Shown: piece by piece, positions 5,770-34,039 of the stretch
Layout: every line of letters starts with the position of its first letter
How positions within the stretch are numbered: the first letter of the stretch is position 1
The notes under the pieces: generated by a model
Told to the model about the DNA's origin: nothing
Seen by the model: the letters and a program-made list of their open reading frames with translations, nothing else
Databases searched by the model: none
Assembly (NCBI GenBank): GCA_009692555.1
Contig: SHYY01000048.1
Coordinates: 1 to 34,804 of the forward strand
Direction: 5' to 3'
DNA from: Myxococcales bacterium
Lineage (GTDB): Bacteria > Myxococcota_A > Polyangia > Palsa-1104 > SHYY01
Length of the DNA: 34,804 nucleotides
Position numbers and translations under genes: made by a program

Positions 5770-7347
5770 ATGCGCGTGTTGCTGATCAACTCGAATCGCG
5801 AGCAATCTCCGTGGCCGGCGGCGCCGATCGGCCTCGCCATGGTGGCGCGCGCGACCGCTGCGGCGCATCACGAGGTGTCGTTCCTCGACCTCGCCTTCGT
5901 GCGCAATCCGGCGCGCGAGACCCGGGTGCGGGCCGCCGAGTTTGCACCCGACGTCATCGGCATCTCGATCCGCAACCTCGACAACTGCAACTTCGACGCG
6001 CCGCGCTTCTACCTCGACGAGGTCCGCGATGAGGTGGTGCGCGTGGCCCGGCTGGCCTGCCCGCGCGCCCGGATCGTGATCGGCGGCGCGGCGGTGAACC
6101 TCGCGCCGTGGGATATCCTCCTGCACGTCGAGGCGGACTTCGCGCTGGCGGGCGAGGGCGAGGAGGCGCTGCCGGCCTTCCTTTCGGCGCTCACCGACGG
6201 TGCGGATCTCCAGGCTGTCCCGGGCGTGCTCGATCGCCACGGCCCGAAGCCCACCCCCGATCACGCGCGCGCCTTCGGCGGAGATCGCGTGTTCCTCGGC
6301 GAGCCGCCCGCCGGGCGATCGATCGTCACCGACTTCGAGACCGGCGGACGGAGCGATCTGTGGCGCTGGGTCGACTGGGCCACCTACGTCGGCCACGGGG
6401 CGCCCTATCCGATCCAGACCAAGCGCGGCTGCGCCCTGCGCTGCGTCTACTGCGCCTACAACAACATCGAGGGGCGCACCTATCGCTGCCGCGAGCCCCG
6501 CCTGATCGTCGACGAGATCGAGGAGGCGGTGCGCGAGGTCGGCGTGCGCTCGATCGACTTCGTCGACTCCACGTTCAATATCCCACCGGTCCACGCCATC
6601 GCTCTTTGCGAGGAGCTGGCGCGTCGCAAGCTGCCCTCCGACGTCGAGCTGTCGACGATGGGTGTCAATCCGGCCGCGATGTCGACCGAGCTCCTCGAAG
6701 CGATGAAGCGCGCCGGCTTCTCCAACGTGATGTGCACGCCGGAGAGCGCGTCCAACGTCACCCTCAAGTCGCTGCGCAAGGGATTCGACCGCGACCAGGT
6801 GATCTTCGCCGCCGAGCAGCTCCGCAAGGCCGGCCTGAAGACGCTGTGGTTCTTCCTGTTCGGCGCGCCCGGCGAGACCGTGGCGACGGTCAAGGAGACG
6901 CTCGAGTTCTGCGAGCGGTACATCGTGCCCACCGACGTGGCGCTGTTCACCGCCGGGATCCGGGTCTACCCGGGCACGCCGCTCGAGAAGCAGTGCAAGG
7001 AGCAGGGCTGGTTCGACGCCGCCGACAACCTCCTCCGGCCCTCCTGGTACGTGGCCCCGACGATCAGCGTGGCCGACATGTATCGCCTCCTGATCGAGGG
7101 CGCGATCGATCACCCCAACTGGATGACCGCCGCCGAGGGGATCCTCAATCCCGGGATGGTGTCCTTCGTCGACAAGGGCTATCGATTGCTGGGCGGCAAG
7201 GGGCCGCTGTGGGCGCGCATGCCCGATCTCTTCCGCTTCATGTCCCGGCTGGGCGTCCGCAAGAAGATCCTGATGCGGATGAACGACCTCCTCGTGTCGC
7301 GGACGCCGTCGCAGCTGCCGCATTCGCGGAAGCTCGAGGCCGGATGA
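5770..7347 (+). CDS. B12-binding-domain radical SAM enzyme
   Basis: A 525-residue protein. Residues 1-150 form a Rossmann-like B12-binding domain (MRVLLINSN, DVIGISIRNLDNCN, VIGGAAVNLAP). The radical SAM core holds the CxxxCxxC cluster at C221, C225 and C228 (KRGCALRCVYCAY). Downstream features include STMGVNPA, TPESASNVTLKSLRKGF and FFLFGAPGET, typical of class B radical SAM proteins. Such enzymes mostly methylate or rearrange unactivated carbons. The specific family is not recognised. It overlaps the next radical SAM gene by ATGA, so they are translated together and may act on the same substrate, plausibly a lipid given the neighbours. Promoter presumably lies in the 105-bp gap divergent from the YtfJ-like gene. 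Confidence 0.85.
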   Translation: MRVLLINSNREQSPWPAAPIGLAMVARATAAAHHEVSFLDLAFVRNPARETRVRAAEFAPDVIGISIRNLDNCNFDAPRFYLDEVRDEVVRVARLACPRARIVIGGAAVNLAPWDILLHVEADFALAGEGEEALPAFLSALTDGADLQAVPGVLDRHGPKPTPDHARAFGGDRVFLGEPPAGRSIVTDFETGGRSDLWRWVDWATYVGHGAPYPIQTKRGCALRCVYCAYNNIEGRTYRCREPRLIVDEIEEAVREVGVRSIDFVDSTFNIPPVHAIALCEELARRKLPSDVELSTMGVNPAAMSTELLEAMKRAGFSNVMCTPESASNVTLKSLRKGFDRDQVIFAAEQLRKAGLKTLWFFLFGAPGETVATVKETLEFCERYIVPTDVALFTAGIRVYPGTPLEKQCKEQGWFDAADNLLRPSWYVAPTISVADMYRLLIEGAIDHPNWMTAAEGILNPGMVSFVDKGYRLLGGKGPLWARMPDLFRFMSRLGVRKKILMRMNDLLVSRTPSQLPHSRKLEAG

Positions 7348-8987
7348 TGACGGACAAGCGGCGGATTTTGCTCATCTATCCGAAGTTCACCCGGAGCCAT
7401 TTGCTCAACTACGAGTTCATGGCGCCGTTCTATCCAGGCAAGCGCGGAGTGATGCCGCCGACCGGCCTGCTGGTGATCGCCGGGCTGTTCGAGGGCGACG
7501 GCTGGGAGGTGCGGATCGCGGACGAGAACGTGGAGCCGTTCAAGCCGGCGGACCTCGCGTGGGCCGAGGTGGTGGGCCTCTCGGGGATGCACCAGCAGCG
7601 CGTCCGCTTGATCGAGCTGATCGATCTGTGCAACCGGAGCGGGAAGATCACCGTCGTCGGTGGATCGTCGGTGAACATCTGCCCGGAGTACTACCCGCAG
7701 GCCGACGTCCTGCACGTTGGGGAGCTCGGCGACGGGACGAAGGAGCTGCTGGCGTTCCTGCGTACGGCCACCGCCAAGCCGCCCGCCCAGGTGGTATTCC
7801 AGACCAAGGAGAAGGCCACCCTCGACGAGCAGCCGCTGCCGGCGCTTCATCTCATCGACGTGAACGGGTATCTGCTGGTGCCGGTGCAGTTCTCGGTGGG
7901 CTGCCCGTTCACCTGCGAGTTCTGCGATATCCCGATGATCTACGGACGCGTGGCGCGCCTCAAATCGCCGGCGCGGGTGATGAAGGAGCTGGACGCCCTG
8001 TACGACCGCGGCTTCATCGGCGCGGTGATGTTCGTCGACGACAATCTGATCGCCAACCGCAAGGCGCTGCGCGAGTTCCTGCCCGAGCTGATCGCCTGGC
8101 AGAAGGCGCGCGGCTTTCCGTTCCAGTTCACCTCCGAGGCGTCGGTGAACCTGGCGCGCGACAAGGAGATCCTCGAGCTCCTGCGCCTGGCGCGGTTCAC
8201 GACGATGTTCGTCGGCGTCGAGTCGCCCGACCCGACCACGCTGATCCAGATCTCCAAGAAGCAGAACGTGATGGACCCGATCCTCGATTCGCTGCGCGCC
8301 ATCGAGGAGCATGGCATCGAGGTGCTGATCGGGATCATCTTCGGCTTCGACAGCGATACGCCGGAGACGGGGCGGATGGTGGCGCGGTTCATCGATCAGG
8401 CCAATGCGCCGATCATCCATTTCAACATGCTGGCGGCGCTGCCGAAGACGCCGCTGTGGGAGCGCATGGTGCGGGAGGGGCGCCTGGTGGCCGACGACGA
8501 CCACCTGCAGATGGACAACCTGCTCGGCTGCCTGAACAGCAATGTGAAGATGAAGCTCCCCAATGCGGTGATCAAGCAGATGTTGATCGAGACGATGCGG
8601 GACGCCTACTCGCCGGAGAAGGTGTGGGCGCGCTATACGTGGAACCTGGAGCACGTCTACGGACGGCAGGTGGCGGGGCGGCCACCGTCGAAGACCTGGA
8701 CGCACTTGAAGATCCTGTTCCCGTTCGCGGTGAAGGCGATGCGGAACGTGCTCCGCGTGGGGGTGCGGGAGGACTACCGCCGCCTCTTCTGGCGCTTCGT
8801 GTGGCAGGCGGTGCGGCTGCGGGTGCGCGGCAAGATCCCGAGCCTGCTCGATGTGCTGTTCAAGGTCGTACCGACAGCGCATCACCTGATCCGGTGGAGC
8901 GAGCGCTATCTCGCCCAGTTCGCCGAGGTGCCGGTGCGAGCAGTCGAGGCACCGAGCGAGCCGCACCAGATGGCCGTCGGATCGTAG
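7344..8987 (+). CDS. HpnP-like B12-binding radical SAM enzyme (DUF4070 type)
   Basis: A 547-residue protein starting at the ATG of the ATGA overlap. The N-terminal B12-binding domain carries FYPGKRGVMPPTGLLVIAGLF and RIADENVEP. The radical SAM core has SVGCPFTCEFCDIPMIYGR (C187, C191, C194). The run VMFVDDNLIANRKALREFLP, then TSEASVNLA, FVGVESPD and GFDSD, closely follows the hopanoid C-2 methylase HpnP and its relatives. The C-terminal 140 residues are basic and amphipathic, as in DUF4070 proteins. HpnP methylates ring A of hopanoids with cobalamin and SAM. No squalene-hopene cyclase is in the window, whereas an oxidosqualene cyclase lies 15 kb away; the substrate could be a hopanoid, sterol or carotenoid. 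Orthology to HpnP needs a tree. Confidence 0.85.
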   Translation: MMTDKRRILLIYPKFTRSHLLNYEFMAPFYPGKRGVMPPTGLLVIAGLFEGDGWEVRIADENVEPFKPADLAWAEVVGLSGMHQQRVRLIELIDLCNRSGKITVVGGSSVNICPEYYPQADVLHVGELGDGTKELLAFLRTATAKPPAQVVFQTKEKATLDEQPLPALHLIDVNGYLLVPVQFSVGCPFTCEFCDIPMIYGRVARLKSPARVMKELDALYDRGFIGAVMFVDDNLIANRKALREFLPELIAWQKARGFPFQFTSEASVNLARDKEILELLRLARFTTMFVGVESPDPTTLIQISKKQNVMDPILDSLRAIEEHGIEVLIGIIFGFDSDTPETGRMVARFIDQANAPIIHFNMLAALPKTPLWERMVREGRLVADDDHLQMDNLLGCLNSNVKMKLPNAVIKQMLIETMRDAYSPEKVWARYTWNLEHVYGRQVAGRPPSKTWTHLKILFPFAVKAMRNVLRVGVREDYRRLFWRFVWQAVRLRVRGKIPSLLDVLFKVVPTAHHLIRWSERYLAQFAEVPVRAVEAPSEPHQMAVGS

Positions 8988-9008: not shown

Positions 9009-10349
9009 TCACTCCAGGGCACCCGCAGCGACGAGCCGGGCGCGCACTCCTTCAGCGATTGCGACGGCGCGCGCGCGTCCGAGGAGCGGCTCGACGTACA
9101 CCACGTTGAACGAGAGCCGGCCACGGAAGGTGCACACCGCCATCGCGAGGGGCGCCACCAGCGCGAGGCCGATCGCGAAGTGGAGCCGGTCGAGCGAGAG
9201 CGCGCCGTAGCGCTCCGGCAGGCCGAGGCGGCCGATGTTGGTGATCCCGAGGCCCGCCGGGATGGCCTGATCGATCCGCCGCACCAGGCCCGGCAGAGGG
9301 TCACTCCCCGACGGGACGAACAGACCGAGCAGCGGGAAGGTGACGTAGGGCTCGCCGCGCGCGAGGGCCGCATCGAGGCGCGCCTTGGCCTCGCGGGCGA
9401 GATCCCACAGGGCTCGCTGCGGGTCGACGCGGAGGAAGGTGGTGGCTTGCGAGACATAGAGGCCCACTTCTTCACCGACGGAGGGGGTCAACTGATCGCG
9501 CAGGTTGACGCCGGAGAAGCAGCCGAGGTGGACGGACTCCTCGCCCGCGGTCGATCCTGCCGTTCGGTCGGCACCGCCTTGGAGATCGTCGCCCGCCGCG
9601 AGCAGCAACGCCGCCTGGAGCGCCCCCTGCACCGTGGTGCTCTCCTTCCGTGCGCGTGCTGCCAGCGACGCCGTCTCCCCCTCGGTGAGCGCGTGGTGGA
9701 GAACCCGGCTCTTGCGGGCCGCGGGTGCCACCTGTTCGTCGACCGCCAGGCGCCGCGGGCGCGCGGCCAGCGTGCGGCCCGCCTGCTGCCAGACGAAGGA
9801 GCCCAGCGCGCCCAGGCGCCCCACGCCGCGCCCGGCGGCGGGGAAGAGGTCGTTCATCGCCGGTCGCAGCGGAAAGGAGGGCTCCTCCCCGGGGGCGAGC
9901 CCGGCGGCGCACTCCAGGAGTTCGCGCACCTGCGAGACGGCGGAGAGCGCATCGGAGATCATGTGGTGGTGGGCCAGCACGAGGTCGTGCGCCCCGTCGC
10001 CTTCGAGGAGGGCGGCGCGCATCAGCGGGGCGCCGTGCGGGTCGAAAGGGAGGTTCAGCTCCTCCTCGGCCACCTCCTCCCAGTGCTGGTCGCTCCTGCG
10101 TCGCAGCACGCGCAACGCCACCGGCGTGGCGGCCGTCGCTCCGGGATCCACGAAGCGCGGCGCCCGCAGATCGCCGCCCACATGAGCCCGCAGGAGCGGA
10201 TGCCGTCGCTGCAGCCGCGCCAGCCCGGCCCGCACCCCCGCCGTGTCGAGCGGGCCCTCGATGCGCGCCACGATCACCCCGTTGAGCGGCGCCGCGCGAT
10301 CCATCAGCCACACCGCCCGCTCCGCCGCACTCAGCCCGCGTTCGCTCAT
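9009..10349 (-). CDS. Condensation-domain O-acyltransferase (PapA/WS-DGAT-like)
   Basis: A 446-residue protein starting at the ATG at 10349 (MSERGLSAAERAVWLMD), chosen because homologues begin at this helix; a longer open frame upstream is probably chance. The catalytic HHxxxD motif is HHMISD, with H128, H129 and D133. The C-terminal half has the second lobe of the chloramphenicol-acetyltransferase fold, including ITNIGRLGLPERYG and FRGRLSFNVVY. Relatives esterify alcohols with acyl-CoA or acyl carriers: wax esters, PapA-type lipids, and alcohol acetylation. With carotenoid, P450 and radical SAM genes around it, esterification of a hydroxylated terpenoid or sterol is plausible but unproven. 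It is convergent with the HpnP-like gene, 21 bp apart. Confidence 0.75.
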   Translation of the reverse strand: MSERGLSAAERAVWLMDRAAPLNGVIVARIEGPLDTAGVRAGLARLQRRHPLLRAHVGGDLRAPRFVDPGATAATPVALRVLRRRSDQHWEEVAEEELNLPFDPHGAPLMRAALLEGDGAHDLVLAHHHMISDALSAVSQVRELLECAAGLAPGEEPSFPLRPAMNDLFPAAGRGVGRLGALGSFVWQQAGRTLAARPRRLAVDEQVAPAARKSRVLHHALTEGETASLAARARKESTTVQGALQAALLLAAGDDLQGGADRTAGSTAGEESVHLGCFSGVNLRDQLTPSVGEEVGLYVSQATTFLRVDPQRALWDLAREAKARLDAALARGEPYVTFPLLGLFVPSGSDPLPGLVRRIDQAIPAGLGITNIGRLGLPERYGALSLDRLHFAIGLALVAPLAMAVCTFRGRLSFNVVYVEPLLGRARAVAIAEGVRARLVAAGALE

Positions 10350-10472
10350 CCGATTCCGGCGGTCACAGTATCTGAAAACCGAACACCATCCCAGGGTTCG
10401 CGCGGGTCGGATCGGAGAGCGCGAGCCTGGCAAGCGGTCAGCGTGGGCGCCGAGGTGGTGTACACTTCGGCC

Positions 10473-10793
10473 ATGGGAGATGACCTGACCGTCGAGATCC
10501 TCAAGCAGATCGGAGACGGAATCACGTCCGTGGGGGACGAGGTGCGTACGATGGGTACGAACCTCGGCGAGCGCATCGACCGGACCCACGATCGGCTCGA
10601 CAAGCTCGAAACGCGCTTTGGCCGCGTGGAGCAAGGTCTCGTGGATCTCGGAGGCTTCATGCGCCAGATCGCCGGCGACCAGCAGCGGCACGAAGGCTTC
10701 CACTCGCACCACGTCGACCTGCTGGAGAAGGACGTCGCGGACCTGAAGCAACGAATGCGGCGCGCCGAGGACGCGCTGTCGCGGCGGGAGTAG
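10473..10793 (+). CDS. Small coiled-coil protein, function unknown
   Basis: A 106-residue protein from the ATG at 10473. It is dominated by heptad-like charged helices (ILKQIGDGITSVGDEVRTMG, RIDRTHDRLDKLETRFGRVE, then LLEKDVADLKQRMRRAEDAL). No signal peptide or known domain is recognised. The open frame extends far upstream as an antisense shadow of the acyltransferase; only this last part has independent coding character. It stops 17 bp before the P450 gene and may be co-transcribed with it. Confidence 0.6.
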   Translation: MGDDLTVEILKQIGDGITSVGDEVRTMGTNLGERIDRTHDRLDKLETRFGRVEQGLVDLGGFMRQIAGDQQRHEGFHSHHVDLLEKDVADLKQRMRRAEDALSRRE

Positions 10794-10810: not shown

Positions 10811-12112
10811 ATGCTCCCTCCGGGTCCTGGCAAGCTCTTCTCGATCTCCGCCGCGCGGCGGCTGCTGCGCGATCCGCCGGGGCTGATCACCGATTTCACC
10901 GCGCGCTACGGGCCGGTGTGGCGCACCCATCTCCCCGACCGCGGGCGCCTGAAGGATCTGGTCTGGTTGATGGGGCCGGAGGGCAACGAGCGCATTCTTG
11001 CTGCAACGCACAAAGACGACTTCTCCTGGCACGAGGGCTACCGCTTCACGATGGAGCCGATTTTTGGCGCCACCACACTCATCCTCCTCGACGGCGCGGC
11101 GCACCGGACGCGGCAGCGGGCGCTCCAGCCGGCCTTCCACGCCCGGATGGACGGCGACCACGGCGCGGCGATGCGCGAGATCGCGGAGGGCCGGTTTGCG
11201 GGCTGGCGGCGCGGCGAGACGATCGATCTCGCCGGGGAGCTGAAGCGGATCTCGTTCCATGTGGTGGCGCGCCAGTTCCTCGGCGCGGCCGACGCGGAGA
11301 TCCCGCCGTTGACCCGCCTGTTCGAGGAGATCGGGCTGGGGCTGTTCTCGGTGTTCAAGGTGCCGCTTCCGGGCACCCGCTTCCATCGGGGGGTGAAGGC
11401 GCGCCGCGCGCTCGCCGGGCTCCTTGCCGAGCGGATCCGGGACTATCGACGGAGCGGCGCGATCCCGGCGAACATGCTGGGCAGCCTGATGCGCAGCGAG
11501 GACGATGCCGGCGAGCCGCTGCCCGACGAGACCCTGGTGTCCGAGATGCTCGCCCTGGTGTTCGCCGGCTACGACACCACGTCGAGCCTGCTCACCTCGT
11601 TGTGGGTCGAGCTTGGCCGGCGACCCGAGATCCACGCCGCGCTGCAGGGCGAGGCGCGCGCCCTCGGGGAGGCCACTCCGCAAGCGTCGTCCGAGCAGCC
11701 CCTGCTCGATGCCGCGCTCCAGGAGGCCGAGCGGCTCCATCCGCCGCTGGTGTTCTGCCTCCGCGGCGCGACGCGCGATCTGACCTTCCGGGGCTTCGAG
11801 ATCCCGGCCGGCAGCAAGGTCGCCTACAGCGCGCACTACACCGGGCGCATGCCCGAGCTGTTCGAGCGGCCGCTCGAGTTCCGGCCGGAGCGGTTTCTCG
11901 ACGGGTGGCGCCCGCCCGCCTACGCGATGGTGGGCTTCGGGGGTGGCCCTCGCGCGTGCATCGGCAAGCGCTTCGCGCAGATCGAGATGCGGCTGATCAC
12001 GACCCTGATCCTGCAGCGCTGGGACTTCGAGTTCCTGCCCGGGCAGTCGGACGAGATGTACTACAACCCGACGCCGCAGAGGCGGCACGGGTTCCAGGTG
12101 CGGATCCGGTAG
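10811..12112 (+). CDS. Cytochrome P450, CYP120/CYP26-like
   Basis: A 433-residue soluble P450. The I-helix motif is FAGYDTTSS, the ExxR motif is EAERLHPP, and the haem loop is FGGGPRACIG with the ligand at C383. The N-terminus PPGPGKLFSISAARRLL has no membrane anchor. The haem loop and the final PTPQRRHGFQVRIR resemble cyanobacterial CYP120 and retinoid-oxidising CYP26 enzymes rather than CYP51, whose I-helix and haem loop differ. Hydroxylation of a terpenoid, retinoid or carotenoid is a reasonable inference. A ferredoxin partner is not encoded nearby. It is convergent with the DUF349 gene, 27 bp apart. Confidence 0.88.
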   Translation: MLPPGPGKLFSISAARRLLRDPPGLITDFTARYGPVWRTHLPDRGRLKDLVWLMGPEGNERILAATHKDDFSWHEGYRFTMEPIFGATTLILLDGAAHRTRQRALQPAFHARMDGDHGAAMREIAEGRFAGWRRGETIDLAGELKRISFHVVARQFLGAADAEIPPLTRLFEEIGLGLFSVFKVPLPGTRFHRGVKARRALAGLLAERIRDYRRSGAIPANMLGSLMRSEDDAGEPLPDETLVSEMLALVFAGYDTTSSLLTSLWVELGRRPEIHAALQGEARALGEATPQASSEQPLLDAALQEAERLHPPLVFCLRGATRDLTFRGFEIPAGSKVAYSAHYTGRMPELFERPLEFRPERFLDGWRPPAYAMVGFGGGPRACIGKRFAQIEMRLITTLILQRWDFEFLPGQSDEMYYNPTPQRRHGFQVRIR

Positions 12113-19630: not shown

Positions 19631-20728
19631 ATGCGGATAGCCATTGTCGGTGCGGGACCGGGCGGGTCGACCGCGGCGCTGTCGCTGGCGCGGCAGAAGC
19701 GCCATGAGGTGGTGCTGATCGACCGCGACGTCTTTCCGCGCGTGAAGACCTGCGGCTCGGCGCTCTCCCCGCGCTGCATCACGCTCAGTCAGGAGCTCGG
19801 GCTCTCGTCGGTGATGGAGAAGCAGGCCTACTGGATCCGCGGGCTGCGCTTCACCGGACCGTCGGGGCGCGAGGCGACCCTCTCGGGCAAGGAGGGCGCG
19901 TGGATCATTCCGCGCGCGCGCTTCGACGCGGAGATCGCATTCACCGCCGAGCGCACCGGCGCGCGCTTCGAGCAGGGCTTCAAGGCGATCAAGGCGCTGA
20001 AGGACCCGTCGGGGCGCGTGCGCGGCATCTCCGACGGAAAACGCGAGATCGAGGCCGACCTGACGATCTTCGCCGACGGCGCCCACTCGCGCTTCTCCGA
20101 AGACAAGCGCCCGAAGCGGCAGATCGCCACGATCATGGGCTGGTGGGAGGGGATCCCGCACCTCGCGGGGCACATGGAGATGTGGTTCTCGAAGCGCGTC
20201 TCCCCCTGGTACGGGTGGCTGTTCCCCGAGAACGCGACGCGGGTCAACATCGGCATCTGCTACGACCCCGCCGACGCGGCCGATCCCAAGACCATCCTCC
20301 AGGAGATCATCGACCGCCACGTCGGACCCGAGCGCATGAAGGGCGCCGAGATGGTCGCCTGCGAGTGCAGCACGACCATCAAGTACCGCGGGGCGCCGAT
20401 CGTCTACACCGAGGAGGTCGGCCCCGTCGCCGCCCCGGGCGCGCTGTGGATCGGCGAGGCCGCGCGCCTCACCAACGCCGCCACCGGCGAGGGCATTTAC
20501 CACGCCATGAAGTCGGGCGCGATCGCCGCCGACGTGATCGCCCAGAACCTGAACGGCACGCTCGGCCAGGTCTACGAGCAGGCCATCCGCCGCCACTTCA
20601 CCTTCCGCCTCCGCATGGCCCTCGGCTTCCTGAAGTTCGCCGGCTCGCCCGCCTTCTCCGCGGTGACCTCGCTGCTCGCCTACCGCCCCGTCGAGAAGAC
20701 GCTCCAGTGGGCACTCGCCCACGTCTGA
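19631..20728 (+). CDS. Geranylgeranyl-reductase-family flavoprotein
   Basis: A 365-residue FAD enzyme. The dinucleotide motif is GAGPGG at residues 7-12. The family's PxxxxCG segment appears as FPRVKTCGSALSPRC. WYGWLFPENATRVNIGI corresponds to the YGWxFP motif, and WIGEAARLTNAATGEGIYHAMKSG to the second FAD motif with the TGEGI turn. These are hallmarks of geranylgeranyl reductases, which saturate isoprenoid double bonds in archaeal lipids, chlorophyll and quinones. It is not squalene epoxidase. Sitting 1.1 kb upstream of the sterol operon and downstream of an isoprenoid region, it might saturate a polyprenyl or sterol side-chain double bond; this is inference. No strong ribosome binding site is present. 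Confidence 0.82.
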   Translation: MRIAIVGAGPGGSTAALSLARQKRHEVVLIDRDVFPRVKTCGSALSPRCITLSQELGLSSVMEKQAYWIRGLRFTGPSGREATLSGKEGAWIIPRARFDAEIAFTAERTGARFEQGFKAIKALKDPSGRVRGISDGKREIEADLTIFADGAHSRFSEDKRPKRQIATIMGWWEGIPHLAGHMEMWFSKRVSPWYGWLFPENATRVNIGICYDPADAADPKTILQEIIDRHVGPERMKGAEMVACECSTTIKYRGAPIVYTEEVGPVAAPGALWIGEAARLTNAATGEGIYHAMKSGAIAADVIAQNLNGTLGQVYEQAIRRHFTFRLRMALGFLKFAGSPAFSAVTSLLAYRPVEKTLQWALAHV

Positions 20729-20777: not shown

Positions 20778-21101
20778 ATGGTTCGGGCTGAGCGACGGAA
20801 GACCCTGCCACGCGACATGCGGTGGCTGTTCCCCGAAATCTACACGCCGCGGCTCGACCTCGACGCCCAGGCAGACGGGATCCTGGCCCGCGTTCTCGAG
20901 CAGGGTGGCACATCCGAGGTCCGCTGGGCGGTCCACAGGTACGGCCTCGCAAGGATCCACCGCTTCTTTCGGGACGTCGGTCATCCGGATCTAAGCCCCC
21001 GCACGATTCAATTCTGGCGCGCACTGCTGCATGCCCCGGACGAGGAATGGAAAAGCCCACCGGCCTGGCGAAAGAGCAAGATCGCGCCCTGGATCTACTG
21101 A
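20778..21101 (+). CDS. DUF6922-type putative antitoxin
   Basis: A 107-residue protein with RWLFPEIYTPRLDLDAQADG, then ILARVLEQGGTSEVRWAVHRYG and SPRTIQFWRALL. This pattern is typical of the small DUF6922 partner encoded just before AbiEii-type nucleotidyltransferases. It overlaps the downstream gene by 55 bp, a usual arrangement in such pairs. Its antitoxin role is inferred from that pairing. ATG at 20778. Confidence 0.75.
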   Translation: MVRAERRKTLPRDMRWLFPEIYTPRLDLDAQADGILARVLEQGGTSEVRWAVHRYGLARIHRFFRDVGHPDLSPRTIQFWRALLHAPDEEWKSPPAWRKSKIAPWIY

Positions 21102-21694
21102 AGCGCGTGCCCGCCGTGGCGGAGGGATTTTATCTCGCCGGGGGGAGCGCGCTCGCGTGGCACCTTCGCCATCGCCGGTCCAACGATCTGGACTTTTTTT
21201 CGCTCACTCCGAGCGTCGGTCTCGAGGGCGTCCGGCGGGGCCTCGCGCACGGGATACCGGCGGCCGTGGCGCTCTCCTCGTCCGACGTCGCCATGAAGGT
21301 GCGCCTCGGCGACACGATGGTGGATTTCGTGAGCTACCCCTATCCGCCGCTCGATGCGCCTCGGGTCGGGCCACGCGGCTTTCCCGTCGCTGGCGTGCGT
21401 GATCTGGCCGCCATGAAGGTGGCGACGATCGCGTCGCGGGGTCTGCGTCGAGACTTCTGGGACCTGTTCGCGATCCTCGACGGCCCGCGAATGACACTGC
21501 AAGACGCGGTGGAGTCCTATCGTGCGCGCTTCGGCCTCACCGAGGCCGCCAGCTATCATGTGATGCGGGCGCTGACGTTCTTCGAGGACGCGGAGCGCGA
21601 TCCTCTGTGGCCCCAGGGTCTGACGAGCCGCAAGTGGGCATCGATCAAGAGGTTCTTCACCAGCAGTGCGCCCCTGCTCCTCGATGTTCCGTAG
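21047..21694 (+). CDS. AbiEii/AbiGii-family nucleotidyltransferase (putative toxin)
   Basis: A 215-residue protein from the ATG at 21047. The nucleotidyltransferase motif YLAGGSALAWHLRHRRSNDLDFF is at about residues 29-51 (G32-G33-S34; acidic D47 and D49), matching the GGSxLAxxxxHRxSxDLDFF pattern of AbiEii. PVAGVRDLAAMKVATIASRG and RDFWDLFAIL follow, as in the family. AbiEii proteins act in type IV-like toxin-antitoxin or phage-abortive systems, and some transfer nucleotides to tRNA. It overlaps the DUF6922 gene by 55 bp. The pair ends 142 bp before the sterol operon and seems functionally unrelated to it. Confidence 0.85.
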   Translation: MEKPTGLAKEQDRALDLLKRVPAVAEGFYLAGGSALAWHLRHRRSNDLDFFSLTPSVGLEGVRRGLAHGIPAAVALSSSDVAMKVRLGDTMVDFVSYPYPPLDAPRVGPRGFPVAGVRDLAAMKVATIASRGLRRDFWDLFAILDGPRMTLQDAVESYRARFGLTEAASYHVMRALTFFEDAERDPLWPQGLTSRKWASIKRFFTSSAPLLLDVP

Positions 21695-21836: not shown

Positions 21837-22955
21837 ATGATCCTCGTCACCGGCGGCGCCGGGCACCTCGGCGCCAATCTCGTTCGCAGGCTGATCGCCG
21901 ATGGCCACGGCGGAGACATTCGCGCCCTCTATCGGCCCGCGAGCGACAATCGCGCGCTCGACGGCCTCCCGATCGAGCTCGTGGCCGGCGATCTTCGCGA
22001 CCTCGAGTCCCTGCGCGCCGCGGTCCGCGGGTGCGACCTTGTCTACCACTGCGCGGCCAAGATCTCGACGTTGGCGGGCAGCGAGCGCGAGATCTTCGAC
22101 TGCAATGTAGTCGGCACGCGGCATCTGCTGCTCGCGGCGCGCGAGGCGGGTGCGAAGAAGGTGGTCGTCTCCGGCTCCTTCAGCGCCGTCGGCCATCACC
22201 TCAGCCGCCCCAGCGACGAGAGCGTGCCGTTCTACCCGTTCGCCCTGGCGATGCCCTACGAGTGGACCAAGGCGCTGGTGGAGATGGAGTGCTGGCGCGC
22301 CGCCGCCGCCGGGCTCGAGACCGTGGTCGCCACCTCGTGCGCGATCATGGGCCCGCACGACTACAAGCCGTCGCGGATGGGCGAGACCCTGATCGCGTAC
22401 GCCCACCGCAAGCTGCCCGCCTACATCCCGGGCGGCTTCGAGTTCGTCTCGGCGCGTGACATCGTCGAGGGGCACATCCTGGCGATGGAGAAGGGCCGGA
22501 GCGGCGAGAAGTACATCATCAGCACCCGCTACGTCACGCTCGACGAGCTGATGCAGATCTTCCAGGAGGTCACCGGGACGCCGAAGCCGCGCTTCCGCCT
22601 CCCGCCGCCGCTGATGGCCGGCATCGCCGCCGTCGCCAGCCCGATCATGAGCCGCTTCTTTCCGCGGCGCACCCAGCGCCTCACCCCCGGGGCGATCCGC
22701 CTCCTCCGGATGGGCCGCCGCGCCGATCACGGCAAGGCGGAGCGCGACCTCGGCTTCCGTCCGACCAGCATGGAGGAGGCGGTGACGCTGGCGTACGCCG
22801 ATTTCCTCCGCCGCGGCTTGATCGAGCGCCCGCGCAGGAGCGTCGCGTTCGTCGATCCCTATCCCGCGCCCAAGGGCAAGCCGGCGGTCGAGGCCGCTCC
22901 TTCAGCGGGTCAGGGTCCGGCCAAGGTCAACGGCGCGCCGGAGGTCCAGGCGTGA
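21837..22955 (+). CDS. sdmB: SdmB-like NAD(P)-dependent sterol dehydrogenase (3-beta-HSD family)
   Basis: A 372-residue extended short-chain dehydrogenase. The cofactor motif is GGAGHLGANL at residues 5-14, the active-site Ser lies in VVSGSFSAVG, and the catalytic pair is Y141 and K145 (YEWTK). It resembles 3-beta-hydroxysteroid dehydrogenase/C-4 decarboxylases. In Methylococcus capsulatus, SdmA (Rieske oxygenase) and SdmB (reductase of this family) together remove C-4 methyl groups from sterols. The same gene pair occurs here, with the Rieske gene overlapping by GTGA, so SdmB function is the favoured call. The C-terminal tail (residues 335-372) is Pro/Ala-rich and probably disordered. First gene of a five-gene operon; strong AAGGAGG upstream. 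Confidence 0.82.
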   Translation: MILVTGGAGHLGANLVRRLIADGHGGDIRALYRPASDNRALDGLPIELVAGDLRDLESLRAAVRGCDLVYHCAAKISTLAGSEREIFDCNVVGTRHLLLAAREAGAKKVVVSGSFSAVGHHLSRPSDESVPFYPFALAMPYEWTKALVEMECWRAAAAGLETVVATSCAIMGPHDYKPSRMGETLIAYAHRKLPAYIPGGFEFVSARDIVEGHILAMEKGRSGEKYIISTRYVTLDELMQIFQEVTGTPKPRFRLPPPLMAGIAAVASPIMSRFFPRRTQRLTPGAIRLLRMGRRADHGKAERDLGFRPTSMEEAVTLAYADFLRRGLIERPRRSVAFVDPYPAPKGKPAVEAAPSAGQGPAKVNGAPEVQA

Positions 22956-24070
22956 ACCAGGACACCGCGCGTCGTCCCCCCGACTTCCACCAGGCGCGCA
23001 ATCGCCGCCAGAAGGTGCGCGCGGCGGGGATGAACCCCGATTACTGGTATCCCGTTGAATACGACAAGAACGTCGCACCCGGGAAATCCGTGTCGGTGAC
23101 CTTCTGGAAGCGGGCGATCGCCCTCTACCGCGGGATGGACGGCCAGCTCCGCGCGGTCGAGGATCGCTGCGCCCACCGGCAGCTCAAGCTCTCCGCCGGC
23201 ACCGTCGAGGGATGCAACCTGGTGTGCCCCTACCACGGCTGGTGCTTCGACGGCGACGGCAAGCTCGCCCACGTCCCGCACGACCTGTTCGGGCACGAGA
23301 TGCCCAAGGTCCAGATCACCAGCTTTCCGGTCCGGGTGCGCTACGGCCTGATCTGGATCTTCCCCGGCGATTCCGCTTTAGCGGAGGAGCGCACGATCCC
23401 CGATCTCCCCGAGATCGAGGGGCCGGTGGCGAAGCGCTGGGGCCACGTCCTGACCGACTTCACCTGGCGCGCCCATCACTCGATGATCCTCGACAACGTG
23501 AGCGACTTCAGCCACGCCTACCTGCACCGCAAGTACCGCCCCTTCACCGACGCCAAGCTCACCAAGTGCGAGGCGGTGGGCGACAAGGTGTTCGTCAGCT
23601 ACGACACCAAGGTCGGCACCGGCCCGATCTCGGGCCTGTTCATCGATCGCCAGCGCGTCGACATGAACGCGATGGACCTCTGCTACGAATACCCCTACCA
23701 GTGGTCGAACACCGACGGGCAGATCAAGCACTGGTGCTTCGTCCTGCCGATCGACGAGCGCACCACGCGCAGCTTCTTCCTGTTCTATTTCAAGTCTTTC
23801 AAGGTGCCGTTCCTGCCGCTGCGCATCCCGCGGCGCGGCATGAGCGTGATCCTCGACTTCGCCAAGGTGCTGCACGTGAAGCCGCTGCTGGCCGAGGACG
23901 GGGTGGCGGTCGAGGCGGAGCAGGCGGGCTACGAGGCGCACTTCGACCAGCCGATCGCGGAGCTCAATCCGGCGGTGGCGCTGTTCCAGCAGCTGACGAT
24001 CCGGAAGTGGGAGGAGCACCTCCAGAAGTCTGACAAGAGCGGCCGGGCCGTCGCCCAGGTGCAGCCGTGA
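22952..24070 (+). CDS. sdmA: SdmA-like Rieske oxygenase (sterol C-4 demethylation)
   Basis: A 372-residue protein with a GTG start at 22952 overlapping the preceding stop by four bases. The N-terminal Rieske [2Fe-2S] domain has C73-x-H75 (CAHR) and C92-x2-H95 (CPYHGW). The catalytic domain has NVSDFSHAYLH, giving D185, H188 and H192 for the mononuclear iron. It would oxidise the C-4 methyl of a sterol stepwise, with the carbon lost by the SdmB-type partner. Related Rieske proteins include the DAF-36/Neverland cholesterol 7-desaturases, a less likely alternative given the SdmB partner. A separate reductase/ferredoxin is needed and is not in the operon. It also overlaps the cyclase start by GTGA. 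Confidence 0.85.
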   Translation: MNQDTARRPPDFHQARNRRQKVRAAGMNPDYWYPVEYDKNVAPGKSVSVTFWKRAIALYRGMDGQLRAVEDRCAHRQLKLSAGTVEGCNLVCPYHGWCFDGDGKLAHVPHDLFGHEMPKVQITSFPVRVRYGLIWIFPGDSALAEERTIPDLPEIEGPVAKRWGHVLTDFTWRAHHSMILDNVSDFSHAYLHRKYRPFTDAKLTKCEAVGDKVFVSYDTKVGTGPISGLFIDRQRVDMNAMDLCYEYPYQWSNTDGQIKHWCFVLPIDERTTRSFFLFYFKSFKVPFLPLRIPRRGMSVILDFAKVLHVKPLLAEDGVAVEAEQAGYEAHFDQPIAELNPAVALFQQLTIRKWEEHLQKSDKSGRAVAQVQP

Positions 24071-26130
24071 ACATCGTCGCGCCGCTTCCGATTCCACTCT
24101 CCGGCCCGGGGCCATCTGCCGTCGCTGGGGGCCGCCAGGATGCGCTCGCTCGCGCCGCCTCGCACCTCCTGGCGCAGCAGCGCGCGGACGGATCGTGGGA
24201 GGGCGAGATGGTGTGGAACACGATGATCCTCTCGCAGCACGTGATCGTGCGAGCGATCGTCGGCCGGCCGTTCGACGAGGCGACCCGCGCCGGGATCCTC
24301 CGCCACTACCAGGTGACCCGCACCCTCGACGGGGCGTGGGGGATGCACGCCGAGTCGGACGGCTACGTCTTCTTCACCACCCTCGCCTACGTCGCCCAGC
24401 GCCTGCTCGGTGTGCCGGCGAGCGATCCGATCCTGGCGACCGCGCGGAGGTGGCTCCACGCGCGCCCCGGTGGGGTCCTGGCGGTGCCGTCGTGGGGGAA
24501 GTTCTGGCTGGCGTTTCTCGGGCTCTACGAATACGAGGGGGTCAATCCCTGCCCGCCCGAGCTCTACGCGCTGCCGTCGTGGGTGCCGATCCATCCCACC
24601 CGCTACTACTGCCACACCCGCAACATCTACATGGGCCTCGCCTACCTCTACGGGCGTCGCTTCCGCGCCGACCTGGGGCCGCTCCGCGAGGCGCTGCGGG
24701 CCGAGCTGTACCCCGCGCGCTACGACACGATCGACTTCGCCGCCCATCGCCACGACGTCGCGGCGAGCGATCTCCACGTGCCCCCGTCGGCGGGCGTCCG
24801 GCTCTCCGCCGACGCGATGACCCTCCACGAGCGGGTCCACTCGCGACGCTTCCGCAAGCGCGCCCTCGGGCACTGCTTCGATCGCATCCTGTTCGAGCAG
24901 CGCTCCTCGAACTACCAGGCGCTCTCGCCGGTCAACGGCCTGCTCAACTGCCTCGCGATCCACGCCCGCGACCCGCAGCACCCCGACCTCGCGCCCAGCC
25001 TGGACGGGGTCGAGAGCTGGCGCTGGGAGGACGCGGCGGAGGGCGTCCGTTATTGCGGAGCGCATTCCACTACATGGGATACGGCCTTCTCCCTGCTCGC
25101 GCTGACCGAGTCGCCGGCCACCACAAGGCAGGCCGGGGCGGCGCTGGGACGGGCCTATCGGTTCCTCGACCGGGCGCAGATCACCGAGGACCTGCCGGCG
25201 TGGCGCGAGGAGCACCGCGACCGGGCGCTCGGCGGCTGGTGCTTCTCCGACGGCGTCCACCGCTGGCCGGTCTCCGACTGCACCGCCGAGGCGCTGTGCG
25301 CGATCCTCCAGCTGCACCGCCTGCGGGCGATCGCCCCGGGCGAGCAGATCCCCGGCGCGCGCCTGCTCCAGGCGGCCGAGTTCATCCTCCTCCGTCAAAA
25401 CGGAGACGGCGGGTTCGGCACCTACGAGCGGCGCCGCGGGTCAGCGTTCCTGGAGGGGATCAACAACACCGAGATGTACGGCAACTGCATGACCGAGCGG
25501 TCGTACGTGGAGTGCACCGCCTCGTCGGTGGCGGCGCTCTCGCACCTGCTCCTGACGCCGCCGGTGGAGCTGCCGGAGGAGTTGCCCGATGAGACGTTGG
25601 CGCGGATCGGCAGCGCGATCACGAGGGGCGTCCAGTTCCTGCGCGCCCAGCAGCGCCCCGACGGCTCCTACCCCGGCTTCTGGGGGATCAACTTCACCTA
25701 CGCCATCTTCCACGTCGTCAAGGGGCTCCGCGCGGCCGGTGTCGCCGCGGACGATCCGGCGATCGCGCGCGCCGCGGCGTGGCTGGTGCAAAAGCAGCGC
25801 AGCGACGGTGGTTGGGGCGAGCACTACACCAGCTGCCTCGACGATCGCTACGTCGAGCACCGCGAGAGCCAGGTGGTCATGTCGAGCTGGGCGCTCCTGG
25901 CGCTGCTGGAGGCCGGCAGCGAGAAGTCCCTCGCCCCCGCCATCGAGCGCGGCGTGGCGTGGCTGCGCGCGGTGCAAAAGAGCGACGGGTCGTTTCCCGC
26001 GGGGGCCCAGAACGGGGTCTTCTTCGGCTCCGCGATGCTGGACTATCGGCTCTACAAGGCGTACTTCCCCACCTGGGCGCTCGCCCGCCACGCAGAATGG
26101 ACCGCCGCCACCGGTCGGCCGCGCCACTAA
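24067..26130 (+). CDS. osc: Oxidosqualene cyclase (lanosterol synthase type)
   Basis: A 687-residue monotopic membrane triterpene cyclase, GTG start at 24067. The catalytic segment is WPVSDCTAE with the proton donor D404, the oxidosqualene form of the motif; squalene-hopene cyclases have DxDD. The partner Cys is in YVECTAS. Many QW-type repeats are visible (QQRADGSWEG, QNGDGGFGTY, QRPDGSYPGFWG, QRSDGGWGEHYTSC). The Val before SDC matches lanosterol synthases, where plant cycloartenol synthases have Ile. However, the usual MQG(T/Y)NGSQxWD motif is replaced by RYCGAHSTTWD, so product prediction is uncertain. The substrate, (S)-2,3-oxidosqualene, requires a squalene epoxidase encoded elsewhere. 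Confidence 0.93.
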   Translation: MNIVAPLPIPLSGPGPSAVAGGRQDALARAASHLLAQQRADGSWEGEMVWNTMILSQHVIVRAIVGRPFDEATRAGILRHYQVTRTLDGAWGMHAESDGYVFFTTLAYVAQRLLGVPASDPILATARRWLHARPGGVLAVPSWGKFWLAFLGLYEYEGVNPCPPELYALPSWVPIHPTRYYCHTRNIYMGLAYLYGRRFRADLGPLREALRAELYPARYDTIDFAAHRHDVAASDLHVPPSAGVRLSADAMTLHERVHSRRFRKRALGHCFDRILFEQRSSNYQALSPVNGLLNCLAIHARDPQHPDLAPSLDGVESWRWEDAAEGVRYCGAHSTTWDTAFSLLALTESPATTRQAGAALGRAYRFLDRAQITEDLPAWREEHRDRALGGWCFSDGVHRWPVSDCTAEALCAILQLHRLRAIAPGEQIPGARLLQAAEFILLRQNGDGGFGTYERRRGSAFLEGINNTEMYGNCMTERSYVECTASSVAALSHLLLTPPVELPEELPDETLARIGSAITRGVQFLRAQQRPDGSYPGFWGINFTYAIFHVVKGLRAAGVAADDPAIARAAAWLVQKQRSDGGWGEHYTSCLDDRYVEHRESQVVMSSWALLALLEAGSEKSLAPAIERGVAWLRAVQKSDGSFPAGAQNGVFFGSAMLDYRLYKAYFPTWALARHAEWTAATGRPRH

Positions 26131-26160
26131 CCACTTCACCCGACCATCAGGAGCTGGAGA

Positions 26161-26718
26161 ATGGGCTACATCTTTGATCCGGAGCACTTGCAGCAGATCG
26201 GCCAGACCGGTGTTGGACTCCCCCACGAGGAGATGTGCCGCGTGGTGATCGAGGGCCTCGCCGCCGCCTACCCCGGCCATATCGAGACCAAGCAGGATTG
26301 GATCTTCAATCTCGCCGCGGGGGCCACGGGAATCATGACCGTCCTCCACGGATCGCTCAGCGAGTACATCATCATCTTCGGCTCCGCCGTCGGTACCGAG
26401 GCGTTCTCCGGCCGCTACCACGTCGATATCTACGACACGATGCTCGCCGGCGAGATGTGGACCTACACCGAGGAGAACTTCCGGGAGAAGACGACCCATC
26501 TGCCTGGCGAGATGGCGCTCCTGAAGCGCGGCACGGCCAAGGGCTTCAAGACACGCGAGGGGAGCTGGATGCTCGAATACGGGCGCGGCCTCGTGCCGAC
26601 CGCGCTGCCGATCGGGCTGGGCGACGCGGTCCTGGCGATGGATGGCGTCACGGTCTGGAAGACGCTCCGCAACTACGGGCGCCTGGTCACGCGCGAGCTG
26701 CTCCAGGGCAAGATCTGA
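26161..26718 (+). CDS. ERG2/sigma-1 receptor family protein, putative sterol C8 isomerase
   Basis: A 185-residue protein. YIFDPEHLQQI, then DWIFNLAAGATGIMTVLHGS, SEYIIIFGSAVGTEAFSGRY and WMLEYGRGLVPTALP follow yeast ERG2 and the sigma-1 receptor almost throughout. The two acidic residues essential in the family are present: D92 in DIYDTML (human D126) and E139 in WMLEYGRG (human E172). ERG2 moves the sterol double bond from C8 to C7, which fits between cyclisation/C-4 demethylation and reduction here. Unlike its eukaryotic relatives it has no N-terminal transmembrane helix; the protein begins at YIFDPE. It may bind the membrane through its two C-terminal helices. A ribosome binding site (AGGAGCTGGAG) precedes the ATG, 30 bp after the cyclase. 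Confidence 0.88.
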   Translation: MGYIFDPEHLQQIGQTGVGLPHEEMCRVVIEGLAAAYPGHIETKQDWIFNLAAGATGIMTVLHGSLSEYIIIFGSAVGTEAFSGRYHVDIYDTMLAGEMWTYTEENFREKTTHLPGEMALLKRGTAKGFKTREGSWMLEYGRGLVPTALPIGLGDAVLAMDGVTVWKTLRNYGRLVTRELLQGKI

Positions 26719-26765: not shown

Positions 26766-28010
26766 ATGAACGAGAAGAAGAAGCAGGCATTTGCCTTCGG
26801 CTACGCCGCGGTCCCGCTGATGGTGATTCTCCCGCCGCTGGTCTATTACATGTGGATCTGCATGGAGTACTACGGCGGGGCGATGGTGATGCCGACGCTG
26901 GAGGTGTGGAGGCACATCCCGCTGCCGACGGTGACCTCGGTGGCGATCTGGATGGGCTGGTTCGGGTTCCAGGCGGCCCTCCAGATCTATGCGCCCGGGC
27001 CGTGGATCGAGGGGGCGGCGCTGGTCGACGGGTCGCGGCTGAAGTACAAGATGAATGGCTGGTTCACCTGGTGGTTCACCTGGGTCTGCATCGCCGCCGG
27101 GGTCTACCTCGGCTGGTTCAAGCCGACGGTGCTGTTCGATCATTTCGGCCCGCTGATGACCACGGTGCACCTGTTCGCTTTCGGGCTCAGCGCCTGGATG
27201 TACCTCCTCGGCAAGATGCGGCCCGATGACGGCACGGCGGAGCTCACCGGCAATCTGTTCCACGAGTATTTCATGGGCACCGCCCTCAATCCGCGCACCG
27301 GCAACTTCGACTGGAAGCTGTTCTGCGAGGCGCGGCCCGGATTGATCGGGTGGGTGGCGATCAATCTCTCGTTCGCGGCGCAGCAGTACCAGGTCCACGG
27401 GTCGCTCACGACCCCGATGATCCTGGTCTGCGCGTTCCATTTCTTCTATGTGGCCGATTACTACTTCCACGAGGAGGCGATCCTCTCGACGTGGGACATC
27501 CGCCACGAGAATTTCGGCTGGATGCTGGTGTGGGGCGATCTGGCGTGGGTGCCCTTCACCTACACCCTGCAGGCGCTCTACCTGATCCAGCACACCCACG
27601 ATCTCTCGCTGGCAGCGACGGTCGGGATCGTCGCGCTCAACGTCGCCGGCTACCTGATCTTCCGGATCACCAACATCCAGAAGCACAATTTCCGCAAGAA
27701 TCCGGAGGCGCTGATCTGGGGAAAGAAGCCCGAGTTCATCAAGACCCAGAAGGGCTCGGTGCTCCTCCTCTCGGGGATGTGGGGGATCGCAAGGCACCTC
27801 AATTACCTGGGCGACCTGATGATGGCGCTGGCGTGGTGCCTGGTGTGCGGCTTCGGCAATCTCCTGCCCTATTTCTACATCATCTATTTCACCATCCTGC
27901 TCGTTCATCGCGAACGCCGGGACCACGTCACCTGTGCCGCCAAGTATGGCAAGGACTGGGAAGACTATTGCGCCAAGGTGCGCTGGCGCATCGTCCCCGG
28001 CGTGTACTGA
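26766..28010 (+). CDS. ERG4/ERG24/DHCR7-family sterol reductase (C-7 or C-14)
   Basis: A 414-residue polytopic membrane protein with about eight to ten hydrophobic segments. The family signatures are LNPRTGNFDWKLFCEARPGL, GDLAWVPFTYTLQALYL, LSGMWGIARHLNYLGDL and the C-terminal HRERRDHVTCAAKYGKDW...YC. They build the NADPH pocket of Delta14, Delta7 and Delta24(28) sterol reductases. Segments such as INLSFAAQQYQVHG, LIWGKKPEFI and RIVPGVY look like 7-dehydrocholesterol reductase and plant DWF5. GDLAWVPF and NFRKNP look like the C-14 reductases. The double bond reduced is therefore undecided, with C-7 slightly favoured. Last gene of the sterol operon, 47 bp after the isomerase, with GAGGAAG before the ATG. 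Confidence 0.88.
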   Translation: MNEKKKQAFAFGYAAVPLMVILPPLVYYMWICMEYYGGAMVMPTLEVWRHIPLPTVTSVAIWMGWFGFQAALQIYAPGPWIEGAALVDGSRLKYKMNGWFTWWFTWVCIAAGVYLGWFKPTVLFDHFGPLMTTVHLFAFGLSAWMYLLGKMRPDDGTAELTGNLFHEYFMGTALNPRTGNFDWKLFCEARPGLIGWVAINLSFAAQQYQVHGSLTTPMILVCAFHFFYVADYYFHEEAILSTWDIRHENFGWMLVWGDLAWVPFTYTLQALYLIQHTHDLSLAATVGIVALNVAGYLIFRITNIQKHNFRKNPEALIWGKKPEFIKTQKGSVLLLSGMWGIARHLNYLGDLMMALAWCLVCGFGNLLPYFYIIYFTILLVHRERRDHVTCAAKYGKDWEDYCAKVRWRIVPGVY

Positions 28011-28028: not shown

Positions 28029-32227
<4,199 letters not shown>

Positions 32228-32231
<4 letters not shown>

Positions 32232-34039
32232 CCGCCTCCGCGCCCGGTGATCCCGTGCTGCTTGAGCTTGTAGACCAGCGTGCGCAGGGGCAGCCCGAGC
32301 TGTTCGGCGGCGCTCTTCCGCACCTCGCCACACGCGGCGAGCGCGGCGACGATCAGCTGGCGCTCGAAGTCGCGCACCTCGTCGGTGAGCGGTCGCCCGG
32401 GGCGGCGCGCCGGGGCGGTGGCGCCGGCACCCGGAGAGGGGGAGGACGGCGTCCCCAGTGCCGTGTCGGCAGCGATCGGGACGATCGCGTCGGGCAGGCA
32501 CCACGGCTCGAGCACCGGCTCGGGGATCGCCGCGGCGATGTACTCGATCACGTTCTTCAGCTCGCGCACATTGCCGGGCCAGGCAAAGCCGGCGAGGTGG
32601 ACCATCGCCCCCGTCGAGATCGCCATCTGCGGGCGGCCGAGGCGGGCGCATGCATCGTCGAGGAAGCGGCGCGCGAGCAGGGCGATCTCGCGCGGGCGGT
32701 CGCGCAGCGGTGGCAGCACGACCGTCGCCGCCCCGAGGCGGAAGAAGAGATCACGCCGGAAGCGCCCGGCCGCCACCTCGGCCTCGAGATCGCGGTTGGT
32801 CGCCGCCACCACTCGGAGATCGACCGGTACCTCCCGCAGCCCTCCCACGCGGGTGAGGCGCTTCTGCTCGAGCACGCGCAGGAGCTTCGCCTGGACCGCC
32901 GCGGAGAGCTCTCCCACCTCGTCGAGGAACAGCGTTCCGCCGCCCGAGACCTCGATCAGGCCGGGCTTCGCGGCGATGGCGCCCGAGAACGCGCCCTTCT
33001 CGTGGCCGAACAGCTCGCTCTCGACGAGCGTCTCGGTGATGGCGGCGCAGTTCAGGATCACGAATGGGCCGTCGCGGCGGGGCGAGTGCCAGTGCACGGC
33101 GAACGCCGCGTGCTCCTTGCCGGCGCCGGTCTCGCCGCACACCAGCACCGGCAGGTCACTCGCCGCGAGCCGCTTGATCAGGTCGTAGAGCCGCACCATC
33201 GCTGGATCCGCGAGCACCACCCGCCGATCGCCGAGCTGTATCTCCGTCGCTGCGCGGGTGGCGTCGACGGCCTCGCCGGGGGCGGCGCCCTGGGCCGCGG
33301 CGCGCGCGGCGCCCAGCAGGGTCGGCGCATCGCAGCCGTCCGCCGGCGCGGTGGCGAAGCCGGCACGGGCCGCGCGCGCGATCCCAGAGGCAGCGAGCGC
33401 CGCGACGAGCGCCCGCGCGATCTCCTCGCTGGCGTCGCGGTCGCGCTCCGGGAGGATCGCCACCAGCGTGCCTTCGGCGCTCCAGCCGGCCGCGTCCAGC
33501 CTGCGCAGGCACCCGTCGATCGCCGCCGCCAGCCCGGCACCGTCGGCGAGCGCGCGGGCACCGAGGGGGAGGGCGACCAGGCCGAGCGGGCGCTCGGTGG
33601 CCCCGACGCGCTCCAGCTCCTCAACGATTCGCCGCGTCAGGGCCGCCGGATCGAGCAACCGACGAGGCCGGCTGGTGTCGGCCGCCCGCCGGTAGATCAG
33701 CTCCGCGTCGCCGATCCCGATCATGTCCCCGTTCTGCAGCGGCCGGGCGCCGTCGATTCGCTCTCCGTTGAGGAGCGTGCCGTTGTGGCTTCCGAGATCC
33801 GCGACCCGCGCCTCCCCGTCGCTGACGTGGAGCTCGGCGTGGCGGCGCGAGACCGCCTGGCTCTCGATCCGCACGTCCGCCTCGTCGCCGCGGCCGACCA
33901 GCAGGCTCCCGTTGCGCGGAAGCCGCAGGCGCCTCGAAGTGGCGCCGTCGACCACCAGGAGGTACCCGCCGTCCCCGACCGCGCCCGCCATCGCCGGCAG
34001 GGTCTGCGTCGCGCTCTTGTCATCACCGGCGCTTGCCAT
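32228..34039 (-). CDS. FHA domain sigma-54-dependent activator (AAA+, Fis-type HTH)
   Basis: About 603 residues from the ATG at 34039; a GTG at 34057 is an alternative start, and neither has a good ribosome binding site. An N-terminal FHA domain (GSLLVGRGDEADVRI, SRRHAEL, LGSHNGTLLNG) would bind phosphothreonine. The middle region (about 120-275) has no clear family. The AAA+ domain has Walker A GETGAGKE, the sigma-54 contact loop GAFSGA in place of GAFTGA, Walker B GTLFLDEVGEL, and RRDLFFRL. The C-terminal Fis-type HTH is near FERQLIVAALAACGEVRKSAAEQLGL. It overlaps the kinase gene by GTGA, so the kinase is a likely partner whose phosphorylation is read by the FHA domain. Target promoters are unknown. 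Confidence 0.9.

Follow-up and report, generated by a model that had tools for sequence, protein, structure and literature searches.

What does a protein of the ERG2/sigma-1-receptor family do in a bacterial sterol operon, and are its pocket residues those of the fungal enzyme or those of the animal receptor? The sigma-1 receptor is a drug target, and there is still debate over its natural ligand and its biochemical role. The locus that raises this question is an open reading frame at 26161-26718 on a contig of a Myxococcales bacterium, analysed here over a stretch of 34,804 nucleotides (the window). The frame, with exact coordinates, runs from ATG to TGA on the forward strand and encodes 185 amino acids. 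Its GC content is 0.90 at the third codon position versus 0.43 at position two, in keeping with a coding frame of a GC-rich genome. The protein matched PF04622 (ERG2_Sigma1R) with an E-value of 3.1e-51 and 174 bits (cut-off 21) over profile positions 22-210 of 210, and this was the sole Pfam family matched. Its best PDB matches were the human sigma-1 receptor (5hk1, 3.9e-32) and the Xenopus sigma-1 receptor (4.9e-30), and a profile made from 30 bacterial relatives matched no PDB entries but these receptors (Xenopus sigma-1, 3.1e-53). A first-pass annotation of this DNA had proposed both the gene and its homology to sigma-1 and ERG2 through the ligand-binding domain. The gene was confirmed by its coordinates, the AGGAG motif, the positional GC and 67-68% identity to a protein of Minicystis rosea, and the homology by the extent of the PF04622 match and by 5hk1. 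Judged by its sequence, 26161-26718 is a real gene for a full-domain homologue of this family.

Table 1. Features of the window around the ERG2/sigma-1-receptor family gene.
Feature	Coordinates	Strand	Evidence and remarks
Geranylgeranyl-reductase-family protein, probable C-24 sterol reductase (Bsr-like)	19631..20728	+	TIGR02032 4.4e-46, just under cut-off
SdmB-like sterol-4-carboxylate dehydrogenase	21837..22955	+	NF052578 4.7e-98, under strict cut-off; 56% identical to L113
SdmA-like Rieske 4-methylsterol monooxygenase	22952..24070	+	Start overlaps SdmB stop; NF052579 7.9e-118, under strict cut-off; 57% to L113 homologue
Oxidosqualene cyclase (OSC)	24067..26130	+	TIGR03463 9.7e-272, over cut-off
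AGGAG, Shine-Dalgarno-like	26149..26153	+	7 bases 5' of ATG; sequence read
ERG2/sigma-1-receptor family protein, 185 aa, class B; probable sterol Delta8-Delta7 isomerase	26161..26718	+	PF04622, 5hk1, relatives' profile
Codon of N50 (yeast N86; human sigma-1 Val84)	26308..26310	+	Asn in 31/34 bacterial copies
Codon of D92 (human D126 position)	26434..26436	+	Alignment; class B Asp (21 copies), class A Phe (13 copies)
Codon of E139 (human E172, yeast E174)	26575..26577	+	Alignment; invariant in 34/34 bacterial copies
Delta14-sterol reductase (ERG24 type)	26766..28010	+	PF01222 3.8e-118; PDB 4quv Delta(14)-sterol reductase 4.9e-157

The sterol operon setting, also part of the first-pass annotation, was confirmed: the genes follow each other on the same strand in the order SdmB-SdmA-OSC-ERG2-Delta14-reductase, with 4-base overlaps or with gaps of 30 and 47 bases. 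The putative C-24 reductase upstream is 40% identical to the copy beside SdmA and SdmB in locus L113 (G177, presumed Sandaracinus amylolyticus), and C-24 sterol reductase activity was shown for Bsr of S. amylolyticus (PMC12004948). An AbiEii-like nucleotidyltransferase gene (20822-21694, +; PF08843, 1.9e-14) lies between this reductase gene and SdmB, an odd site for a toxin-antitoxin-type gene. The CYP51 gene is located on another contig of the genome (G000:C224, 1.7e-134 to CYP51 6mi0). A cytochrome P450 encoded within the window (10811-12112, +) was considered for this role and rejected, its best match being CYP120 with CYP51 at just 1e-33; it is a possible sterol or isoprenoid oxidase. No squalene epoxidase was found in the source genome, which is 80% complete, and we put this down to its completeness because a same-genus genome has one. 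As the ERG4/ERG24 family is represented by a single gene and the epoxidase is missing, the full pathway is not evident in this genome. Elsewhere in the window, two neighbouring genes (5770-7347, +, and about 7559-8987, +) encode B12-binding radical SAM proteins, the first of which is similar to TIGR04072, the 'ladder' family of lipid biosynthesis (5.6e-85, under the cut-off), and 9009-10751 (-) encodes a PapA-type acyltransferase/condensation domain protein. Beyond the operon, 28029-32651 (-) encodes a large protein resembling Ser/Thr kinases, in which Gly and Thr alternate over a long run; the opposite strand reads as Pro-Val repeats from about 31360.

The protein had been described as lacking the transmembrane helix of the eukaryotic members and as a possible minimal catalytic form. 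The absence of the helix was borne out: an in-frame stop ends 10 codons 5' of the start, so that a hidden N-terminal helix cannot be added, and no hydrophobic segment was detected in the first 40 residues. The N-termini of yeast ERG2 and of the human receptor reach 2.3 and 2.2 on the same hydrophobicity scale. Among the relatives, 35 loci were extracted and yielded 34 usable proteins, one pair being identical; none of these 34 bacterial proteins has an N-terminal helix ahead of the FDPE-like motif. Since every bacterial relative checked is equally anchorless, the missing anchor is ruled out as a special feature of this protein, and the idea of a special minimal form falls with it. An anchorless protein is therefore the norm in bacteria. 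The protein may still touch the membrane, because the sigma-1 receptor domain lies against the membrane, with ligand entry thought to be membrane-side, between helices alpha4 and alpha5 (PMC10094450).

We looked at the pocket residues in an alignment of the bacterial copies with the human and Xenopus sigma-1 receptors and with yeast ERG2. In the yeast sequence used, Asn86, Tyr105, Ile107, His122, Tyr164 and Glu174 fall exactly at the positions named in PMC8230181, and N86, Y105 and E174, which are pocket residues in the yeast ERG2 model of that paper, correspond to N50, Y69 and E139 of the protein studied here. D92 and E139 are 47 residues apart, and D126 and E172 of the human receptor 46. The initial claim that both key acids are kept was right for human D126/E172, but its implication that yeast ERG2 shares both was wrong, as yeast ERG2 has Phe128 at the first position and its Asp two residues earlier. 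This difference also divides the bacterial copies into two classes. Class A (13 copies) has Asp at human I124, Phe at D126 and Ala at 170; class B (21 copies, that of the window included) has Val or Ile at 124, Asp at 126 and Met at 170 (one Val). With I90 and D92, the protein does not follow the fungal-type ERG2 pattern, that of class A. Human and Xenopus sigma-1 align with class B, while yeast ERG2 aligns with class A (Asp126 and Phe128 in yeast numbering). In the human receptor, I124 lines the ligand pocket and D126 hydrogen-bonds E172 (PMC10094450). Since residues two apart on a beta-strand face the same way, the second carboxylate would stay in the pocket in both classes, shifted by one strand repeat. 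The sigma-1 set of Val84, Trp89, Val162 and Trp164 is not kept, the corresponding residues being N50, A55, F129 and T131. At the first three of these positions, both bacterial classes and yeast agree and sigma-1 differs; N50/Val84, A55/Trp89 and Tyr or Phe at 129/Val162 may mark what was lost in the receptor. Two class A copies (L012 and L015, from G094 and G130) have a C-terminal extension that replaces the usual GK(I/L) end. We found no description of the class A/B split in the literature searched, and what appears to be new here is this split and its match to the difference between sigma-1 and ERG2.

PF04622 was detected in 32/377 Myxococcota genomes and in 1/149 genomes of the Planctomycetota set. 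A strong OSC match, defined by a threshold of our own (about 1e-110 or better), was present in 26 of the 32 genomes with PF04622 versus 36 of the 345 without (Fisher p 1e-17, an optimistic value as the genomes are related). PF04622 tracks OSC across Myxococcota, patchily. The six genomes with PF04622 and without a strong OSC match (G002, G079, G137, G252, G260 and G354) may reflect incomplete assemblies or the use of outside sterols. The same-genus genome G331 has a cyclase and lacks the PF04622 gene; its cyclase (L117, G331:C170) adjoins the same phosphotransferase gene (75% identical), with no Sdm, ERG2 or ERG24 gene on the short contig, so that gain or loss of the operon may have taken place within the genus. 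One further ERG2 copy (L029, G351:C47:213482-214075, -) carries an in-frame TGA and adjoins an open Delta14-reductase-type gene. A tblastn search of plasmids for further relatives gave no match, and viral contigs searched with the family alignment gave no relative. The presence of EBP (PF05241) was rejected as a clean alternative marker, as this family is broad (59/377 genomes) and weakly linked to OSC.

We consider that the protein is most probably a sterol Delta8-to-Delta7 isomerase, either soluble or bound peripherally to the membrane. Isomerases of the ERG2 type protonate C9, giving a C8 cation that loses a proton from C7, and basic-amine ERG2 inhibitors mimic the C8 cation. The protein would act after C-14 demethylation and after the operon's own Delta14-reductase, and transfer the double bond of ring B from C8=C9 to C7=C8. 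Protonation at C9 would lead to the C8 cation and loss of the C7 proton would complete the shift, with the carboxylates of E139 and D92 delivering and taking up protons. The second carboxylate of class B would be at the human D126 position, whereas that of class A and yeast ERG2 precedes it by two residues. The activity, the substrate, the order of the steps and the facing of both acid positions into the pocket are what we infer from sequence and gene context. The gene co-occurs with the sterol pathway, and no EBP-family (PF05241) isomerase was found in the 80% complete source genome. Two other genomes of the same order, G263 (94% complete) and G322 (99% complete), have class B copies with an adjoining Delta14-reductase-type gene, and no EBP-family protein was found in either. 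In G177, the presumed S. amylolyticus, the search found a class A copy and no EBP; as S. amylolyticus accumulates lathosterol, a Delta7 sterol, and also makes cholesterol, the PF04622 family is the only known candidate for this step there. The cholesterol producer M. rosea has the nearest PF04622 relative but also two EBP-like proteins, which counts against an isomerase role, as do the six genomes without a strong OSC match. The support is weaker for class B than for class A. The human sigma-1 receptor is not known to have isomerase activity and, since it has the same two acids, the acids alone are no proof of catalysis.

The same resemblance would suit a protein that binds sterols without catalysis, a bacterial sigma-1 counterpart serving the operon as a sterol chaperone or sensor. 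The protein has the acid positions D126/E172 in common with the human receptor, along with the residues at 124 (Ile) and 170 (Met), and the genomes without a strong OSC match include some with class B copies. However, at the sites of Val84, Trp89 and Val162 in human and Xenopus sigma-1 it retains Asn, Ala and an aromatic residue, as do yeast ERG2 and class A, and its gene sits between two biosynthetic genes in a genome where no EBP-family isomerase was found; we hold a purely binding role to be quite unlikely. Alternatively, the protein could be a double-bond isomerase with another outcome, such as a shift from Delta8 to Delta8(14) or turnover of a 4-methyl sterol, the two classes differing in product or substrate. 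The displacement of the second pocket acid by two residues between the classes, which co-varies with position 170 (Ala in A, Met in B), and the fact that both classes adjoin the same kinds of sterol gene would agree with this. Against it, the two classes do not differ at E172 or at most pocket positions, and 8(14)-unsaturation in bacteria is credited to a reductase (PMC13277303), which makes a different product very unlikely in our eyes. A Delta8-to-Delta7 isomerase is still the reading that we prefer.

To place the two classes, a tree was built with 33 bacterial and three eukaryotic rows (yeast ERG2, human and Xenopus sigma-1). A starred branch splits class A with yeast from class B with sigma-1 (97/91, and 99% of 200 bootstrap trees), and it was still found, at 90/85 (94%), once the five trait columns had been deleted and the divergent rows excluded. 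The protein groups with the M. rosea copy (99/94) and, with four more rows, forms a starred clade. One class B copy, L030 (G362), is very divergent and has a long branch. Forcing the three eukaryotic rows together cost 8.1 log units (p-AU 0.097), these rows being few and long-branched, and with this AU p and three eukaryotic rows neither a transfer from eukaryote to bacterium nor the reverse was supported, and separate origins of the eukaryotic proteins were supported no better than a common one. It is conceivable, although on the whole unlikely, that there are two old bacterial lineages of the ERG2 family with the second pocket acid shifted by two residues, animal sigma-1 and fungal ERG2 each being tied to a different one. 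If true, the sigma-1 pocket would be the inherited pocket of a working enzyme, its activity lost through the changes from Asn to Val84, Ala to Trp89 and Tyr/Phe to Val162 and not through the acids. A recent acquisition of the gene from a eukaryote is scarcely credible: the gene is patchy and absent from the same-genus genome searched, and the AU test does not reject one common clade of the eukaryotic rows (p 0.097), but the nearest relatives are bacterial (68% identity to M. rosea, 54% to a Planctomycetota MAG; starred, 99/94 and 99/93) and identity to the human protein is just 36%. In the present tree, with its three eukaryotic rows, the clade of the protein is surrounded by bacterial copies alone.

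Bacterial ERG2 in sterol clusters is already known, and 26161-26718 is a further example. ERG2 was described in steroid gene clusters of sponge-symbiont MAGs, where earlier bacterial operon work is cited (PMC9531527), and a homologue for C-8 isomerisation was noted in a Calothrix cluster (PMC10202945). Compared by description, the sponge-symbiont clusters likewise have ERG2 beside OSC and ERG24, but their CYP51 lies inside the cluster, unlike in the operon studied here. The M. rosea protein (L031) is 68% identical, of class B and the starred sister, whereas its surroundings hold no homologue of the other sterol genes of the source contig within 8 kb. EBP (emopamil-binding protein) of animals and plants performs the reaction proposed here and belongs to an unrelated family, PF05241, not found in the source genome. 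Yeast ERG2 shares PF04622, 37% identity, the Asn, Tyr and Glu pocket residues and the sterol-pathway setting; it differs by its N-terminal hydrophobic helix and by Asp at human I124 with Phe at D126, where the bacterial protein is anchorless with Asp at D126. Human and Xenopus sigma-1 (36% and 34% identity) share the D126/E172 pair, Met170, E102, Y103 and F107, while the bacterial protein is without the transmembrane helix, has Asn50, Ala55 and Phe129 against Val84, Trp89 and Val162, and is encoded in a sterol operon. A protein that has the acid pair of human sigma-1 but no anchor, in a biosynthetic operon, opens a direct route to the residues that set a working isomerase apart from the sigma-1 receptor.
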